This document shows positions 29,777 through 48,395 of a stretch of DNA of 64,000 nucleotides, piece after piece. The stretch lies in assembly GCF_018325905.1 (NCBI RefSeq), contig NZ_AP021901.1, forward strand, positions 4,898,001 through 4,962,000. The letters run 5' to 3'. The notes below the pieces were generated by a model. The model worked only from the letters and a program-made list of their open reading frames with translations. It had not been told where the DNA came from and did no database searches. Source of the stretch: Pseudomonas sp. St316. Lineage in GTDB: Bacteria > Pseudomonadota > Gammaproteobacteria > Pseudomonadales > Pseudomonadaceae. The position numbers were made by a program, and so were the translations under genes. The stretch's first letter is position 1, and every line of letters begins with the position of its first letter.

Positions 29777-30652
29777 TTATTTCGGTTTCTGGACCGGCTT
29801 CTTGCTGCCGCCCAGGTGTTTTGCCCCGCCGCTGGCGATCAGCTCCGCCAGCTCGGAAACGTCCAGCAAGGCGCACATATGCTCGATCACCGTACCGGCC
29901 AGCCATGGCCGTTGCCCTCGATGGCTGCGCCACTTGATCTCGTTCGGGTCCAGGCGCAGCGAACGGCTGACCTGATGCACCGCCAAACCCCACTCGTAAC
30001 CCTGCACTGAAATCACGTACTGCAAGCCTTGGCGAAAGTCATCGCGATAACGGTCTGGCATGACCCAGCGCGCCGTATCCAGTACCTTCAGGTTGCCGGC
30101 CTGGCTCGGCAGGATCCCGAGGAACCATTCCGGCTGGCCAAACAACGGCGTCAATTCCTGCCCGGCCAGGGAATAAATCGATCCCAGGCATACCAGCGGC
30201 ACCGCCAGGGTCAACCCGGCCACATCGAACAACAAACACTCGAACGGCTCGGCAGCCCAAGCCGGACGGTCGTCGCCCGGCACCGGTGGCGGCGGGTTGC
30301 TCGGCGGCAGGTGGATTTCCACCACCGGCGTCACCAGGCCCTGCAGCAACGGGGCAACGGTCGAGACCGGCGCCAGGATCGGCGCAGGCGCGTCCATGAC
30401 CGCAACCTGGGGCTTGATAAACGGAGCCTCGACCGCTGCAGCCATTACTGATTGCTGTGCATCACGGGCCTGCTCCTCGAGCACGGCCGCCTGAAATTCA
30501 TCCAGCACACCCTTGGCTTCGACAGGCTCGGGCAACGCCTCGATCACGCTTGGCTCTGGTGGCAATTCTTCGGTCGCTTCCTGCAACAGCCCATCCAGAT
30601 AGGATTGCAGGGCCATTTGCGGACGCGAGGTTGTCTTTATCGGGCGGCTCAT
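29777..30652 (-). CDS. CheW-domain protein, ParP-like
   Basis: This 291-residue protein has a proline-rich N-terminal region (1-150) with MSRPIKTTSRPQMALQSYLDGLL and a CheW-like domain in the C-terminal half (about 155-280; EPFECLLFDVAGLTLAVPLVCLG). This layout, directly downstream of a ParA-like ATPase gene, matches ParP of Vibrio, which stabilises polar chemoreceptor arrays by binding CheA. The ATG at 30652 is 15 bp after a FliA-type promoter (30678-30705). Localisation was not tested. Confidence 0.8.
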   Translation of the reverse strand: MSRPIKTTSRPQMALQSYLDGLLQEATEELPPEPSVIEALPEPVEAKGVLDEFQAAVLEEQARDAQQSVMAAAVEAPFIKPQVAVMDAPAPILAPVSTVAPLLQGLVTPVVEIHLPPSNPPPPVPGDDRPAWAAEPFECLLFDVAGLTLAVPLVCLGSIYSLAGQELTPLFGQPEWFLGILPSQAGNLKVLDTARWVMPDRYRDDFRQGLQYVISVQGYEWGLAVHQVSRSLRLDPNEIKWRSHRGQRPWLAGTVIEHMCALLDVSELAELIASGGAKHLGGSKKPVQKPK

Positions 30653-30748: not shown

Positions 30749-31540
30749 TTAAGCCACCTGCTGTGGAACGAGCTGCTGGGCCAGCAGATGCTTGAGCAGC
30801 GCCCGATACGCCAGCACGCCACGACTCTTGCCATCGAACTGCGAAGGGGTCACGCCGGCACGGCTGGCGTCCCGCAGGCGGGTATCGACGGGGATATAGC
30901 CCTGCCAGATGTCATCCGGGTACATGTCCCGCAACACGCGCAGGGTCCCCAAGGACGCCTGGGTGCGACGATCGAACAAGGTCGGCACGATGTTGAAAGC
31001 CAGCGACTGCTTACGCGAGCGGTTGACCATCGCCAGTGTATTGACCATCCGCTCCAGGCCCTTGACGGCCAAGTGTTCGGTCTGCACCGGGATCACCAAC
31101 TGCTGGCTGGCGGCCAAGGCATTGACCATCAGCAACCCCAACAATGGCGGGCTATCGATGATCGCGTAATCGAAATCCTGCCACAGCTGCGCCAGACTCT
31201 TGGCGATCACCAGGCCTAACCCGCTCTGCCCCGGCGACTGTCGCTCCAGGGTGGCAAGGGCGGTGCTCGATGGCAGCAGGGAAATCCGCTCGTCGCTGGT
31301 GGACAACAGCAACTGCCCCGGCAGGCCCTCGGGCACCACGCCCTTGTGCAGGAACAGGTCGTAGTTGCTGTGCTCCAGGCTGTCCGGATCGTAACCGAAA
31401 TAGCTGGTCATCGAGCCATGGGGGTCCAGGTCGACGATGACCACGCGCTTGCCCGCCTCGGCCAGCAACCCGGCTAAAGCGATGGAAGATGTGGTCTTGC
31501 CCACACCACCTTTTTGATTGGCGACTGCCCAGACTCTCAT
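30749..31540 (-). CDS. ParA-family ATPase, ParC-like
   Basis: This 263-residue MinD/ParA ATPase has the deviant Walker A NQKGGVGKTTSS near residue 8, and YAIIDSPPLLG (Walker B region) near 130. Located between motD and a ParP-like gene, it matches ParC of Vibrio and its Pseudomonas counterpart, which places chemotaxis clusters at the pole rather than segregating chromosomes. The ATG at 31540 (MRVWAVA) begins at the Walker strand. It is not the plasmid-type ParA, since no parB lies nearby. Confidence 0.88.
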   Translation of the reverse strand: MRVWAVANQKGGVGKTTSSIALAGLLAEAGKRVVIVDLDPHGSMTSYFGYDPDSLEHSNYDLFLHKGVVPEGLPGQLLLSTSDERISLLPSSTALATLERQSPGQSGLGLVIAKSLAQLWQDFDYAIIDSPPLLGLLMVNALAASQQLVIPVQTEHLAVKGLERMVNTLAMVNRSRKQSLAFNIVPTLFDRRTQASLGTLRVLRDMYPDDIWQGYIPVDTRLRDASRAGVTPSQFDGKSRGVLAYRALLKHLLAQQLVPQQVA

Positions 31541-34414: not shown

Positions 34415-36673
34415 TCAAATACGCCGGGCGGCGTAACGCTTGAGCATGCTTGGCACATCGAGAATCAACGCGATGCGGCCGTCGCCGGTGATGGTGGCGC
34501 CGGACATGCCCGGGGTGCCCTGGAGCATCTTGCCCAACGGCTTGATGACCACTTCTTCCTGGCCCACCAACTGGTCGACGACGAAACCAATCCGCTGGGT
34601 GCCCACCGAAAGGATCACCACATGGCCCTCGCCCTGCTCTACGTGAGCGGCGGAGCTGACCAGCCAGCGCTTGAGGTAGAACAGTGGCAGTGCCTTGTCC
34701 CGTACGATCACCACTTCCTGGCCGTCCACCACGTTGGTGCGCGACAGGTCGAGGTGGAAGATCTCGTTGACGTTGACCAGCGGGAAGGCGAAGGCCTGGT
34801 TGCCCAGCATCACCATCAGGGTCGGCATGATCGCCAGGGTCAATGGGACCTTGATGACAATCTTCGAGCCCTGGCCCTTGGTCGAGTAGATATTGATCGA
34901 ACCGTTGAGCTGGGAAATCTTGGTTTTCACCACGTCCATGCCCACGCCACGGCCCGACACGTCGGAAATCTCGGTCTTGGTCGAGAAACCCGGGGCGAAG
35001 ATCAGGTTGTAGCACTCGGTGTCGCTCAGGCGGTCGGCGGCATCCTTGTCCATCACACCGCGCTTCACCGCGATGGAACGCAACACGTTCGGATCCATGC
35101 CTTTGCCGTCGTCGGAGATCGACAGCAAGATGTGGTCGCCCTCTTGCTCGGCGGCCAGGATCACCTTGCCGCCGCGGACCTTGCCTGAAGCTTCGCGCTC
35201 TTCCGGCGACTCGATGCCGTGGTCGACCGCGTTGCGCACCAAGTGGACCAGCGGGTCGGCCAGGGCCTCGACAAGGTTCTTGTCGAGGTCGGTCTCTTCA
35301 CCCACCAGTTCCAGGTTGATTTCTTTCTTGAGCTGACGAGCCAGGTCGCGAACCAGACGCGGGAAGCGCCCGAAGACTTTCTTGATCGGCTGCATGCGGG
35401 TCTTCATGACCGCGGTCTGCAGGTCCGCCGTGACCACGTCCAGGTTCGACACGGCCTTGGACATGGCTTCGTCCTGGCTGTTGAGGCCCAGGCGCACCAG
35501 ACGGTTACGCACCAGCACCAGTTCGCCGACCATGTTCATGATCTCGTCCAGGCGTGCGGTATCGACCCGGACGGTGGTCTCGGCTTCGCTGGCCGGTTTT
35601 TCCGCAGGCGCAGCCGCGGCCGCGCGGGCTGGTGCCGGCGCCGCAGCAGCGGCAGGCTTGGCGGGTTCGGCCTTGGGTTCCGGTGCCTTGGCAGCGGGTT
35701 TGGGCACTGCCTTGGCCGCCGGTGCAGCCGCCGTGGCGGTGGCAGGCGCAGCAGAAGCGGTACCCACTTCGCTGAACTTGCCCTTGCCATGCAGCTCGTC
35801 GAGCAGTGATTCGAATTCGTTGTCGCTGATCAAGTCGCCACCTGCGACAGCGGCAGCGGGCTTGGCCGGTGTCGGCGCCGAAGCGATGGCTGAATCCAGC
35901 GCGTCAACGGCAAAGGTGCCCTTGCCATGCAACTGATCGAGCAAGGCTTCGAATTCGTCGTCGGTGATGTCCGAGCTGTCGCCCGCCGCTTTCGGGGCGG
36001 CCGGGGCCGCCGGCGGGACCGCGGCATCAGGCGCGAACTGGCCCTTGCCATGGAGCTGGTCGAGCAGTGACTCGAACTCGGCATCGGTGATTTCATCGCT
36101 GGCAGCCCCAACGGCGGCCGGCGCAGCGGGTGCAGCCGGAGCGACCGGTGCCTCGGCCTGAGCCTTGACGGTATTGAGGGAGTCCAGCAGTTGTTCGAAT
36201 TCATTATCAGTGATGTCGCCCGATGCCTCGGCGACCGGCTCTTCAACCGCAGCCTCGGCAACCGGAGCCGCTTCATCAGCCGATTGCGGCTCGGCCAGAC
36301 GCGACAGCGCAGCGAGCAGCTCGGGGGTGGCGGCGGTGATCGGCGAGCGCTCGCGCACTTCACTGAACATGCTGTTGACCGCATCCAGCGCTTCAAGCAC
36401 CACGTCCATCAACTCCGAATCAACGCGACGCTCACCCTTGCGCAGGATGTCGAACACGTTTTCGGCAATGTGACAGCACTCCACCAGCTCGTTGAGCTGG
36501 AGGAAGCCGGCGCCTCCTTTTACAGTGTGGAAACCGCGAAAGATTGCGTTGAGCAGATCCGCATCATCCGGCCGGCTTTCCAGCTCGACCAATTGCTCGG
36601 ACAGTTGCTCAAGAATCTCGCCAGCCTCAACCAGGAAATCCTGAAGGATCTCTTCATCGGCGCCGAAGCTCAT
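34415..36673 (-). CDS. cheA: Chemotaxis histidine kinase CheA
   Basis: This 752-residue kinase has an Hpt/P1 domain with phospho-accepting His49 in RGFHTVKGGAGF. A long low-complexity linker follows (130-390) with four repeats of an ITDxEFExLLDxLHGKG peptide. The dimerisation domain (VRVDTARLDEIMNMVGELVL), the ATPase domain (LVHLVRNAVDHGIE; DDGKGMD; GRGVGMDVVK) and a CheW-like P5 domain complete it. It phosphorylates CheY and CheB in the polar array. No obvious P2 fold is visible in the linker. It follows cheZ by 31 bp. Confidence 0.96.
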   Translation of the reverse strand: MSFGADEEILQDFLVEAGEILEQLSEQLVELESRPDDADLLNAIFRGFHTVKGGAGFLQLNELVECCHIAENVFDILRKGERRVDSELMDVVLEALDAVNSMFSEVRERSPITAATPELLAALSRLAEPQSADEAAPVAEAAVEEPVAEASGDITDNEFEQLLDSLNTVKAQAEAPVAPAAPAAPAAVGAASDEITDAEFESLLDQLHGKGQFAPDAAVPPAAPAAPKAAGDSSDITDDEFEALLDQLHGKGTFAVDALDSAIASAPTPAKPAAAVAGGDLISDNEFESLLDELHGKGKFSEVGTASAAPATATAAAPAAKAVPKPAAKAPEPKAEPAKPAAAAAPAPARAAAAAPAEKPASEAETTVRVDTARLDEIMNMVGELVLVRNRLVRLGLNSQDEAMSKAVSNLDVVTADLQTAVMKTRMQPIKKVFGRFPRLVRDLARQLKKEINLELVGEETDLDKNLVEALADPLVHLVRNAVDHGIESPEEREASGKVRGGKVILAAEQEGDHILLSISDDGKGMDPNVLRSIAVKRGVMDKDAADRLSDTECYNLIFAPGFSTKTEISDVSGRGVGMDVVKTKISQLNGSINIYSTKGQGSKIVIKVPLTLAIMPTLMVMLGNQAFAFPLVNVNEIFHLDLSRTNVVDGQEVVIVRDKALPLFYLKRWLVSSAAHVEQGEGHVVILSVGTQRIGFVVDQLVGQEEVVIKPLGKMLQGTPGMSGATITGDGRIALILDVPSMLKRYAARRI
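35774..36220 (-). repeat. Four peptide repeats in the CheA linker
   Basis: In CheA the peptide appears at residues 152-167 (GDITDNEFEQLLDSLN), 193-213 (DEITDAEFESLLDQLHGKG and two more residues), 235-254 (DITDDEFEALLDQLHGKG) and 280-300 (DLISDNEFESLLDELHGKG). Spacing is about 41-46 residues, with Ala/Pro linkers between. The first copy lacks LHGKG. The DNA copies are similar too, around 35780-35836, 35920-35970 and 36040-36095. Confidence 0.9.
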
Positions 36674-36704: not shown

Positions 36705-37490
36705 TCAGAATCCAAGGCTGGACAGCAAATCGTCCACATCGTCCTGACCGGACACAACGTCTTCTCTTTTATCGGCATGAATTTGCGGACCTTCACCCTG
36801 AGAGAGATGTTTTTGTGGATCTTTTTCAGCAAGCATCGCTTCACGGTCGTGTTCGATGCCCGCAAAGCGGTCGACCTGGCTGGCCATCAACACCAGTTTG
36901 AGCAAATTGCTTTCCACTTCGGTGACCAGCTGGGTCACGCGCTTGATCACCTGGCCGGTCAGGTCCTGATAGTCCTGGGCAAGCAAGATGTCGTTGAGGT
37001 TGCTGGCGACGGCGCGGTTCTCGGTGCTGCTGCGTGTCAGGAAACCGTCGACCCGGCGGGCCAGCTCCCGAAACTCTTCGGCGCCGACTTCGCGCCGCAT
37101 GAACCGACCCCAGTCGGTGCTCAAGGCCTGGGCTTCTTCGCTCAGGCCATTGACCAGCGGCGTTGCGCTTTCCACCAGGTCCATGGTGCGGTTGGCCGCA
37201 GCCTCGGTCAGCTTGACCACATAACCCAGACGCTCGGTGGCATCGGTGATCTGCGAGACTTCCTCGGCCTGCGGCATATGCGGGTCGATCTGGAAATTGA
37301 CAATCGCGCTGTGCAATTCACGCGTGAGCTTGCCCACTTCCTGATACAGACCGCGATCACGGGTCTGGTTGAGCTCATGGATCATTTGAACCGCATCGCC
37401 AAAGCGACCTTTTTCAAGGCTGTCGACCAGTTCGCGGGCATGTTTTTTCAGGGTCGATTCGAAATCGCCCATTGAAGATTCGTTGTCCAT
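36705..37490 (-). CDS. cheZ: CheY-P phosphatase CheZ
   Basis: This 261-residue helical protein contains LLAQDYQDLTGQVIKRVTQL near residue 160, with the catalytic Asp/Gln pair of CheZ, and a C-terminal CheY-binding tail (ending QDDVDDLLSSLGF). It dephosphorylates CheY. It is between cheY (18 bp) and cheA (31 bp). Confidence 0.95.
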   Translation of the reverse strand: MDNESSMGDFESTLKKHARELVDSLEKGRFGDAVQMIHELNQTRDRGLYQEVGKLTRELHSAIVNFQIDPHMPQAEEVSQITDATERLGYVVKLTEAAANRTMDLVESATPLVNGLSEEAQALSTDWGRFMRREVGAEEFRELARRVDGFLTRSSTENRAVASNLNDILLAQDYQDLTGQVIKRVTQLVTEVESNLLKLVLMASQVDRFAGIEHDREAMLAEKDPQKHLSQGEGPQIHADKREDVVSGQDDVDDLLSSLGF

Positions 37491-37508: not shown

Positions 37509-37880
37509 TTAACCGATGCGTTCGAAGATTTTTTCGATCTTCTCTTTCAACGCCTGGGCCGTGAAGGGTTTGACCACATAGCCGTTTACACCGGCCTGGG
37601 CCGCTTCGATGATCTGCTCGCGCTTGGCTTCGGCGGTCACCATCAGCACCGGAAGGTGCTTGAGTTTTTCGTCGGCACGCACCTGGCGCAACAGGTCGAT
37701 ACCGGTCATGCCCGGCATGTTCCAGTCGGTGACCAGAAAATCGAAGTTGCCACTGTGCAACATCGGAAGCGCAGTGGTTCCGTCATCTGCTTCGGCCGTG
37801 TTGGTGAACCCAAGGTCACGCAACAGGTTTTTTATGATCCGCCGCATCGTTGAGAAGTCATCAACGATGAGGATTTTCAT
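37509..37880 (-). CDS. cheY: Chemotaxis response regulator CheY
   Basis: This 123-residue single receiver domain starts [20 protein letters not shown] and has the phospho-acceptor Asp in [12 protein letters not shown], then [10 protein letters not shown] and [10 protein letters not shown] (Thr and Lys switch residues). Phosphorylated CheY binds FliM and FliN. The ATG at 37880 fits the usual CheY length; the frame to 37904 adds eight residues. A region of about 167 bp upstream separates it from fliA. Confidence 0.97.
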
Positions 37881-38047
37881 GTTCTTGTCCAATTCGACCT
37901 CCAAGCAGTCTTAAACGCGCCCAGCACCTGGACGCGCCATTTCAATCAATCCGGCACAACACTCGACAACGGTCTGGAGCACAACGGATGGAGACTGGCG
38001 CAGTACCTGCCAGGCCAGCCTCGTTCGCAGTGTCCCCACACTGCCTG

Positions 38048-47426: not shown

Positions 47427-48395
47427 TCAGCGGCGTTCGATCGGCTCGATCACCTGCAACGCCAGGTTGCCTTTGTGAGAGCCCATCTTGACCTTGAAGG
47501 CCGGCACACCATTGGCACGCATGATCATGTCTTCCGGCATCTCGACGGGGATGATGTCCCCCGGTTGCATGTGCAGGATGTCCCGCAGACGCAGTTGGCG
47601 CCGAGCGACTGTCGCGCCGACCGGCACGTCGACATCCAGCACGTCCTGGCGCAAAGCGTTGATCCAGCGCTCGTCCTGATCGTCGAGGTCCGACTGGAAA
47701 CCGGCGTCGAGCATTTCACGCACCGGCTCGATCATCGAGTACGGCATGGTCACGTGCAGGTCGCCGCCACCGCCATCGAGCTCGATGTGGAAGGTCGAGA
47801 CCACAATGGCCTCGCTCGGGCCGACGATGTTGGCCATGGCCGGGTTCACTTCCGAGTTGATGTACTCGAAGTTCACTTCCATGATCGCCTGCCAGGCTTC
47901 CTTCAAGTCGACGAAGGCCTGCTCCAGCACCATGCGCACCACCCGCAGCTCGGTCGGGGTGAATTCCCGCCCTTCGATCTTGGCGTGACGACCGTCGCCA
48001 CCGAAGAAGTTGTCCACCAGCTTGAACACCAACTTGGCGTCAAGGATGAACAACGCGGTGCCCCGCAACGGCTTGATCTTCACCAGGTTGAGGCTGGTGG
48101 GCACGTACAGCGAGTGCACGTACTCACCAAACTTCATCACCTGCACGCCACCGACGGCCACGTCGGCCGAACGGCGCAGCATGTTGAACATGCTGATGCG
48201 GGTGTAGCGGGCGAAACGCTCGTTGATCATTTCCAGGGTCGGCATGCGTCCGCGAACGATGCGATCCTGGCTGGTCAGGTCGTAGCTTTTGACGCTGCCC
48301 GGTTCAGCAGCGTTTTCGGTCTGCACCAAGCCGTCGTCGACACCATGCAACAGCGCATCGATTTCGTCCTGGGACAGCAGGTCCTGCACGGCCAT
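47427..48395 (-). CDS. fliM: Flagellar motor switch protein FliM
   Basis: This 322-residue protein starts with the CheY-binding segment DLLSQDEIDALLHGVDDG, then the CheC-like middle domain (GEYVHSLYVPTSLNLVKIKP) and a C-terminal SpoA domain (VDVPVGATVARRQLRLRDIL). CheY-P binding to FliM changes rotation. It lies 9 bp after fliL. Confidence 0.97.
   Translation of the reverse strand: MAVQDLLSQDEIDALLHGVDDGLVQTENAAEPGSVKSYDLTSQDRIVRGRMPTLEMINERFARYTRISMFNMLRRSADVAVGGVQVMKFGEYVHSLYVPTSLNLVKIKPLRGTALFILDAKLVFKLVDNFFGGDGRHAKIEGREFTPTELRVVRMVLEQAFVDLKEAWQAIMEVNFEYINSEVNPAMANIVGPSEAIVVSTFHIELDGGGGDLHVTMPYSMIEPVREMLDAGFQSDLDDQDERWINALRQDVLDVDVPVGATVARRQLRLRDILHMQPGDIIPVEMPEDMIMRANGVPAFKVKMGSHKGNLALQVIEPIERR

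Follow-up and report, generated by a model that had tools for sequence, protein, structure and literature searches.

How does a chemotaxis kinase that lacks a P2 domain hold its messenger protein CheY? The P2 of textbook CheA is a folded docking domain. The question is raised by the cheA gene of Pseudomonas sp. St316, located in a stretch of 64,000 nucleotides of contig NZ_AP021901.1 that we analysed as a whole and call the window. The encoded kinase is of the F6 type (class name as used in PMC7184735) and has Pfam matches to P1 (Hpt, residues 8-100), P3 (366-425), P4 (472-612) and P5 (619-746). The linker between P1 and P3, residues about 110-366, carries four copies of the motif [IL][ST]DxEFExLLDxL:

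34415..36673, minus strand: cheA, F6-type histidine kinase of 752 amino acids, assigned by its domain matches
36173..36214, minus strand: copy 1, ITDNEFEQLLDSLN, residues 154-167, the type without LHGKG, ending in DSLN
36041..36091, minus strand: copy 2, ITDAEFESLLDQLHGKG, residues 195-211, ending in LHGKG
35918..35968, minus strand: copy 3, ITDDEFEALLDQLHGKG, residues 236-252, ending in LHGKG
35780..35830, minus strand: copy 4, ISDNEFESLLDELHGKG, residues 282-298, ending in LHGKG

Four spaced copies at this site had been reported in an initial annotation of the window, and the description holds up well: its residue ranges are correct to within a few residues, the interval 35774-36220 takes in all copies, LHGKG is absent from copy 1 and present in copies 2-4, and the spacers are rich in Ala and Pro. 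The repeats also sit where P2 usually does, and the Pfam models for P2 and the CheY-binding domain have no match in this CheA at E ≤ 1. At the DNA level the array appears as direct-repeat families of 98 and 33 nucleotides, with the four copies spaced 123-138 nucleotides apart. When a profile made from 96 repeats of other species, with the own CheA excluded, was run over the 64 kb, the four copies scored 41-67 bits, and among the 71,648 six-frame windows nothing else exceeded 5.2 bits. A search of the whole genome with the repeat profile gave E values of 2.8e-11 to 1.5e-5 for the four copies and 1.05 for the next match. The mean net charge per 17 residues is -6.2 in the repeat cores and -1.2 in the spacers. 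The DNA repeats and the profile scores confirm that the repeat array is genuine and beyond chance.

Counting the repeats in many Pseudomonas CheAs, as the initial annotation had proposed, gave, at the threshold used, four copies in 102 of 110 Pseudomonas-type loci and three in the other 8, with a degenerate first copy visible in 7 of these 8 linkers. The 110 loci comprise a set of 30 (St316 and the 29 best further matches, with about 17 other F6-type matches of that search left out) and 80 named loci, the best 80 of 578, obtained with search patterns that included two repeat peptides; one of the 80 is titled only 'Gammaproteobacteria bacterium', and both samples favour close relatives. At class level, 114 genomes were drawn, of which 42 (St316 included) had a CheA match at E ≤ 1e-110, and 40 loci were fetched. 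Thirty-five of these were analysable, the other five having no recognised linker boundary; four of the 40 were left out of alignment A4, and genome G070 was added later. The motif was found in 34 of the 35 analysable loci in 1-8 copies (one copy in 3 loci, two in 10, three in 16, four in 4, eight in 1), and the single zero-copy locus, L165, holds degenerate copies below threshold. The profile used for counting had been trained on 100 class-level repeat segments identified by pattern, so that it and the counts at class level are not independent; in the class-survey CheAs the threshold was reached only by windows inside the linker. The E, F, L, L and D positions of the motif are near-invariant over the whole class, and this conservation across species points to selection on the repeats. 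Twelve further F6-type CheAs, mostly from a phylum-level draw, carry 2-4 copies; one of the twelve, L221 of Vibrio fortis, carries three.

The two copy types are ordered. Of the 102 four-copy Pseudomonas-type CheAs, 97 have a copy 1 without HG, as do 17 of the 21 class-level CheAs with at least three copies; HG is present in the middle and last copies in 306/306 cases among the Pseudomonas-type and in 45/51 among the class-level proteins. An LHGxG continuation on all copies but the first is the rule in most species. All three copies in the CheA of Vibrio fortis are of the HG type. Among the matches listed, 240 homologues have four copies (225) or five (15). Both numbers occur in CheA entries labelled P. 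aeruginosa, with five copies in P0168 and P0174 and four in P0230 and P0237. The five-copy entries have lengths of 799 and 808 residues, the four-copy ones of 745 and 747; a unit of 46 or 55 residues is exactly duplicated in tandem in the longer entries, showing that copy number changes through tandem duplication. The eight-copy CheA of the class sample (locus L142, 9050-12253) has a linker of 591 residues.

We then compared the array with P2. The Pfam models are insensitive here, with the CheY-binding model matching only 4 of 20 F7-type CheAs and the P2 model 1 of 20, weakly; we therefore used profile matches to the PDB and a P2 hidden Markov model (HMM) of our own, trained on those 20 F7-type CheAs. 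On PDB 2LP4, which comprises P1-P2 of E. coli CheA, a profile of 37 F6 CheAs aligned to chain residues 6-145 only, i.e. to P1, whereas a profile of the 20 F7-type CheAs, members of the same family, aligned to residues 1-222, covering P1 and P2. The HMM, which represents the F7 block between P1 and P3, found no P2 in 41 F6-type CheAs (best E 0.076) and none in the Vibrio fortis CheA; P2 and CheY-binding families were also not among the 25 of 51 families listed for the 37 F6 CheAs. Conversely, the motif was found in 0 of the 20 F7-type CheAs, with a best profile score of -12. In 42 further CheAs from 40 loci, hand-picked among the matches listed, 12 had the motif without P2, 11 had P2 without the motif, none had both, and 19 had neither, a group that may hide divergent P2s. 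In the CheAs tested, the repeat array and a detectable P2 thus do not overlap, and the array stands in the place of P2. At two loci, L225 and L227, a motif CheA without P2 and a P2 CheA without the motif start about 7 kb apart. Judged from these comparisons, the linker appears to be a conserved tandem array of short docking peptides, neither a P2 domain nor an artefact. The accessible text of a 2023 survey reports that about half of all CheAs have no P2 and that AlphaFold models of these show a long region without structure in its place, and suggests that P2 is dispensable (PMC10782961).

Structure prediction fits a beads-on-a-string layout. We ran AlphaFold2 on the CheA of locus L128, alone and as a CheY-CheA read-through chain (alignments of 12 and 39 rows), and each full repeat was modelled as a helix of 11-13 residues with a local confidence score (pLDDT) of about 75-84, the spacers scoring about 30-65. 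The repeats scored about 80-81 with CheY in the chain and about 75-84 without it; as these values are alike, the models give no sign of docking. Each copy would be an acidic amphipathic helix of about 12 residues that opens with a predicted Ser/Thr-x-x-Glu cap (T-D-D-E), and disordered Ala/Pro sequence would serve as the tether.

What might such helices bind? We regard CheY, possibly together with CheB, as the likelier primary ligand, a claim to which we give about an even chance. Three further features of the window bear on it:

37509..37886, minus strand: cheY, encoding the proposed ligand of the repeats (Response_reg, 5.8e-32)
36708..36746, minus strand: C-terminal peptide of CheZ, QDDVDDLLSSLGF, a peptide of a known CheY-binding kind, compared with the repeats
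48348..48383, minus strand: N-terminal peptide of FliM, DLLSQDEIDALL, a motif known to bind phosphorylated CheY, compared with the repeats

The repeat core ITDDEFEALL resembles LLSQDEIDALL of the FliM N-terminus. FliM had first surfaced in a scan with a pattern written after the repeats were known, and we therefore ranked it with trained profiles from which the own CheA was excluded. With core widths of 12 and 15 columns, which were our choice, no window of the 64 kb outside CheA scores higher than the FliM N-terminus (77,238 and 75,561 windows, respectively); on all 22 columns it ranks 5th, and by BLOSUM scoring 3rd. FliM N-termini matching (L/I)L(S/T)Q(D/E)E(I/V)DALL are present in 29 of 30 FliM loci of F6 genomes, the remaining one not being recovered by the pattern, and EIDALL is described, in the accessible part of PMC9126983, as the conserved site for phosphorylated CheY (CheY-P) in FliM and FliY. 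The CheY side offers indirect support. As far as the available text of PMC7184735 goes, F6 CheYs differ from CheYs that have moved to an F7 CheA by R92K, Q94N and V103A, at positions turned towards P2 in the E. coli complex, and additionally by K117E, a charge reversal in the FliM-binding helix. We found R92, Q94, V103 and K117 together in 109 of 110 Pseudomonas-type and in 27 of 37 class-level CheYs. Because the F6 CheA has no detectable P2, the motif array is a candidate contact for these P2-facing sites, and the negative charge of the repeat cores is complementary to R92 and K117.

Two further points speak for CheY: the array occupies the position of P2 and was never seen together with it, and it persists in 5 of 6 genomes without ParP and che-type ParC, described below. 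Helix formation (as predicted), CheY binding and multivalency are what we infer. The array would do the job of P2 with FliM-like peptides that bind the α4-β5-α5 face of CheY, and perhaps also CheB. As each copy is proposed to bind one CheY face, several CheY molecules would be held beside phosphorylated P1; binding would be weak per site but multivalent, and CheY-P would pass on to FliM, the user of the same face. In its full form the proposal is that gammaproteobacterial F6 CheAs, having no folded P2, carry a multivalent CheY holding pen of FliM-mimicking peptides that competes with the motor and whose capacity evolves by tandem duplication; we consider this plausible, if somewhat short of an even chance. 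The copy numbers observed are 3 to 5 in Pseudomonas-type CheAs and up to 8 in the class.

Several observations weigh against CheY docking. The likeness to FliM is short, and an acidic helix with a Ser/Thr-x-x-Glu cap is a generic element. FliM was not among the matches at E ≤ 10 in the genome-wide search (20 columns, 100 candidates scored), FliM and CheZ peptides were not among the PDB sequence matches of the repeat peptide and the repeat profile, and the CheZ C-terminus ranks only 407th to 2975th against the repeat profile. LHGKG has no counterpart at the same offset in FliM. FliM alone is a possible reason for the F6-type residues of CheY, and the F6 CheYs that depart from the R92/Q94/V103/K117 set (10 of 34) show no loss of repeats in number or strength (p = 0.37 and 0.12). 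AlphaFold2 confidence in the repeats is nearly the same with and without CheY in the chain, and E. coli CheA without P2 still transfers phosphate, albeit slowly, according to the accessible text of PMC10782961. Finally, binding of the LID segment of CheA to the polar-array protein ParP is experimentally established in Vibrio, the conserved parts of the Vibrio linker are largely these motifs, and a higher copy number accompanies ParP.

These last points belong to the reading put forward in the initial annotation, in which the repeats may be multivalent docking sites for a ParP-like protein encoded in the operon of cheA and may tune array size, a reading that is partly supported. The gene is indeed there, together with a ParC-like gene:

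29777..30652, minus strand: ParP-like gene, product with a conserved N-terminal ALxxYLDxLL, a linker and a C-terminal CheW-type domain; the rival ligand
30749..31540, minus strand: ParC-like gene for a ParA-type ATPase

The operon order is cheY-cheZ-cheA-cheB-motC-motD-parC-parP-cheW, where the names cheB, motC, motD, parC and parP are in part presumptive. The product of 29777-30652 and 20 relatives have a common N-terminal motif, ALxxYLDxLLxEVPE, ahead of a variable linker, with Tyr18 and Leu22 invariant in all 21 sequences; the motif is perhaps a ParC-contact peptide in the form of a short helix. P. aeruginosa is said to have no ParC/ParP-related genes in the accessible text of a 2025 paper (PMC12410967); the St316 operon, by contrast, has both parC and parP.

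If the repeats were the LID or its core, they would offer multivalent docking to the AIF/CheW-like domain of ParP, the protein that uses ParC to anchor arrays at the pole, and CheY docking would be absent or incidental; as a whole we consider this rather unlikely, though parts of it are supported. We followed conservation along the linker in 118 Vibrio-type CheAs (entries within P0242-P0361), most of which share more than 87% identity with the query. Between the P1-proximal stretch and P3 it is highest at the three motifs, so the LID probably contains them or lies next to them, a point in favour of the initial annotation. Conserved alongside them are the join to P3 and a short stretch, EELDxATKPA, that directly follows the third copy; the LID might instead be this stretch, outside the repeats. 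As an observation on its own, EELDxATKPA, seen in the Vibrio fortis locus (L221) and the Vibrio-type CheAs, is a possible separate ParP contact. Parts of the literature accessible to us place the LID between P2 and P3 (PMC7534058) and restrict this CheA domain to cases in which ParC/ParP occur (PMC5706961). Repeats missing despite ParP and ParC were not encountered, as the motif is present in all 27 class-level genomes that have ParP and a CheA linker open to analysis, and in 9 of 9 from a later draw. The mean copy number is 3.0 in the 27 genomes with ParP and 1.6 in the 8 without it (Mann-Whitney p = 0.002, with no correction for phylogeny). What did not stand is dependence on ParP. A ParP-grade match is absent from 8 of 41 genomes (G059, G068, G080, G083, G084, G114, G146 and G169). 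Two of the eight have ParC, and both keep the motif (2 and 1 copies); the other six are without a che-type ParC as well. Their best ParAs score 183-201 bits; two genomes whose true ParC reaches 379 and 443 bits have a second ParA with similar scores, 185 and 195 bits. Five of these six carry the motif, with 4, 2, 1, 2 and 1 copies, and in every one of the five loci (L145, L147, L149, L159 and L163) one or more copies have the HG or YG extension; the sixth has 0 copies at threshold. The clearest case is L149 of G059, an intact cheA-cheB-motC-motD-cheW operon without parC or parP and with four copies, three of them HG-type. Two of the six, G084 and G146, have cheA at the end of a contig, and completeness is 88% for G146 and 91% for G059. 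G070, a ninth genome with no ParP-grade match, was left out of this set: its family, f13, seemed to lack ParP judging by score, but L227, a relative, carries a divergent ParP-like gene next to parC, and the family is not counted as ParP-less. In the che operons of L143 and L162, parC is followed directly by cheW with no parP between them. These genomes argue against ParP as the sole or the ancestral, defining partner. We likewise infer an overlap with the LID in species that have ParC and ParP: some of the copies, or the very ones that would bind CheY, probably belong to the segment that contacts ParP as well. The array is probably a way for the kinase to hold its messenger protein, a polar-anchor protein, or both.

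The ordered copy types, the first without and the middle and last with HG, could also reflect a division of labour in which copy 1 is a FliM/CheZ-like CheY dock and the LHGKG copies bind ParP, CheB or CheW. Any such role of LHGKG is conjectural, and we hold this arrangement to be improbable: the core is identical in both types, HG-type copies persist without ParP, and all three Vibrio fortis copies are of the HG type. The sticker-spacer layout and the change of copy number by exact tandem duplication in the P. aeruginosa-labelled CheAs would suit generic low-affinity stickers without a specific ligand, placed on a disordered linker and used for spacing, for self-association or to condense arrays. 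The near-invariance of the E, F, L, L and D positions in the class and the non-overlap with P2 argue for a specific partner and make this very improbable. That the repeats are chance or a database artefact, i.e. a SHOCT domain or low-complexity sequence, is scarcely credible, even though Pfam SHOCT reaches 27.5 bits on the St316 CheA (cut-off 27) and matches 32 of 37 F6 CheAs at E ≤ 1. In the St316 CheA only positions 14-27 of the 28 of the SHOCT model match, and internally, with no single stretch significant; low complexity is ruled out by the conservation. The SHOCT label on many F6 CheAs is a half-model match to the repeats (35774-36220 here) and likely a misleading annotation.

In the literature searched, which was largely open-access, we found no description of CheA with LHGKG, and among the papers listed on P2-less or P2-replaced CheA and on CheA with FliM/CheZ-type CheY-binding motifs, as far as their text was accessible, the repeats are not described; the word 'repeat' is absent from the main text of PMC10782961. 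The CheAs encoded in the flagellar chemotaxis operons of Pseudomonas and Vibrio belong to a class with a conserved peptide array exactly where P2 would be, and this array suggests in concrete terms how a kinase without P2 may hold CheY. It may also unify the roles of the linker as a CheY dock and as the ParP-binding LID, and its natural copy-number variants are a ready valency series.

Among known systems, SHOCT (PF09851) shares a similar half-motif, ITxEEFExxLL, but is a short C-terminal domain, whereas the match in CheA is internal and limited to the second half of the model. The LID of Vibrio CheA, compared here by its description and not by its boundaries, is found in the same protein class and linker, with three motif copies in the Vibrio fortis CheA; it is said to occur only with ParC/ParP, whereas the repeats also occur without both. 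The EIDALL peptide of the FliM N-terminus, a short acidic capped helix, resembles the repeats in an S/T-x-x-E-[IF]-[DE]-x-L-L core, a likeness that ranks 1st to 5th among non-CheA windows of the 64 kb but gives no match genome-wide, and the likeness of the CheZ C-terminal peptide is poor by profile; both peptides lie at a protein terminus, whereas the repeats are internal (residues 154-298) and tandem, with Phe for Ile and an LHGKG extension. P2 of CheA (Pfam P2 PF07194, CheY-binding PF09078) is a folded domain, unlike the repeats, which are predicted short helices on a low-confidence tether and have no P2 match; yet the repeats likewise lie between P1 and P3, and the task proposed for them, recruitment of CheY and CheB to the kinase, is the same.

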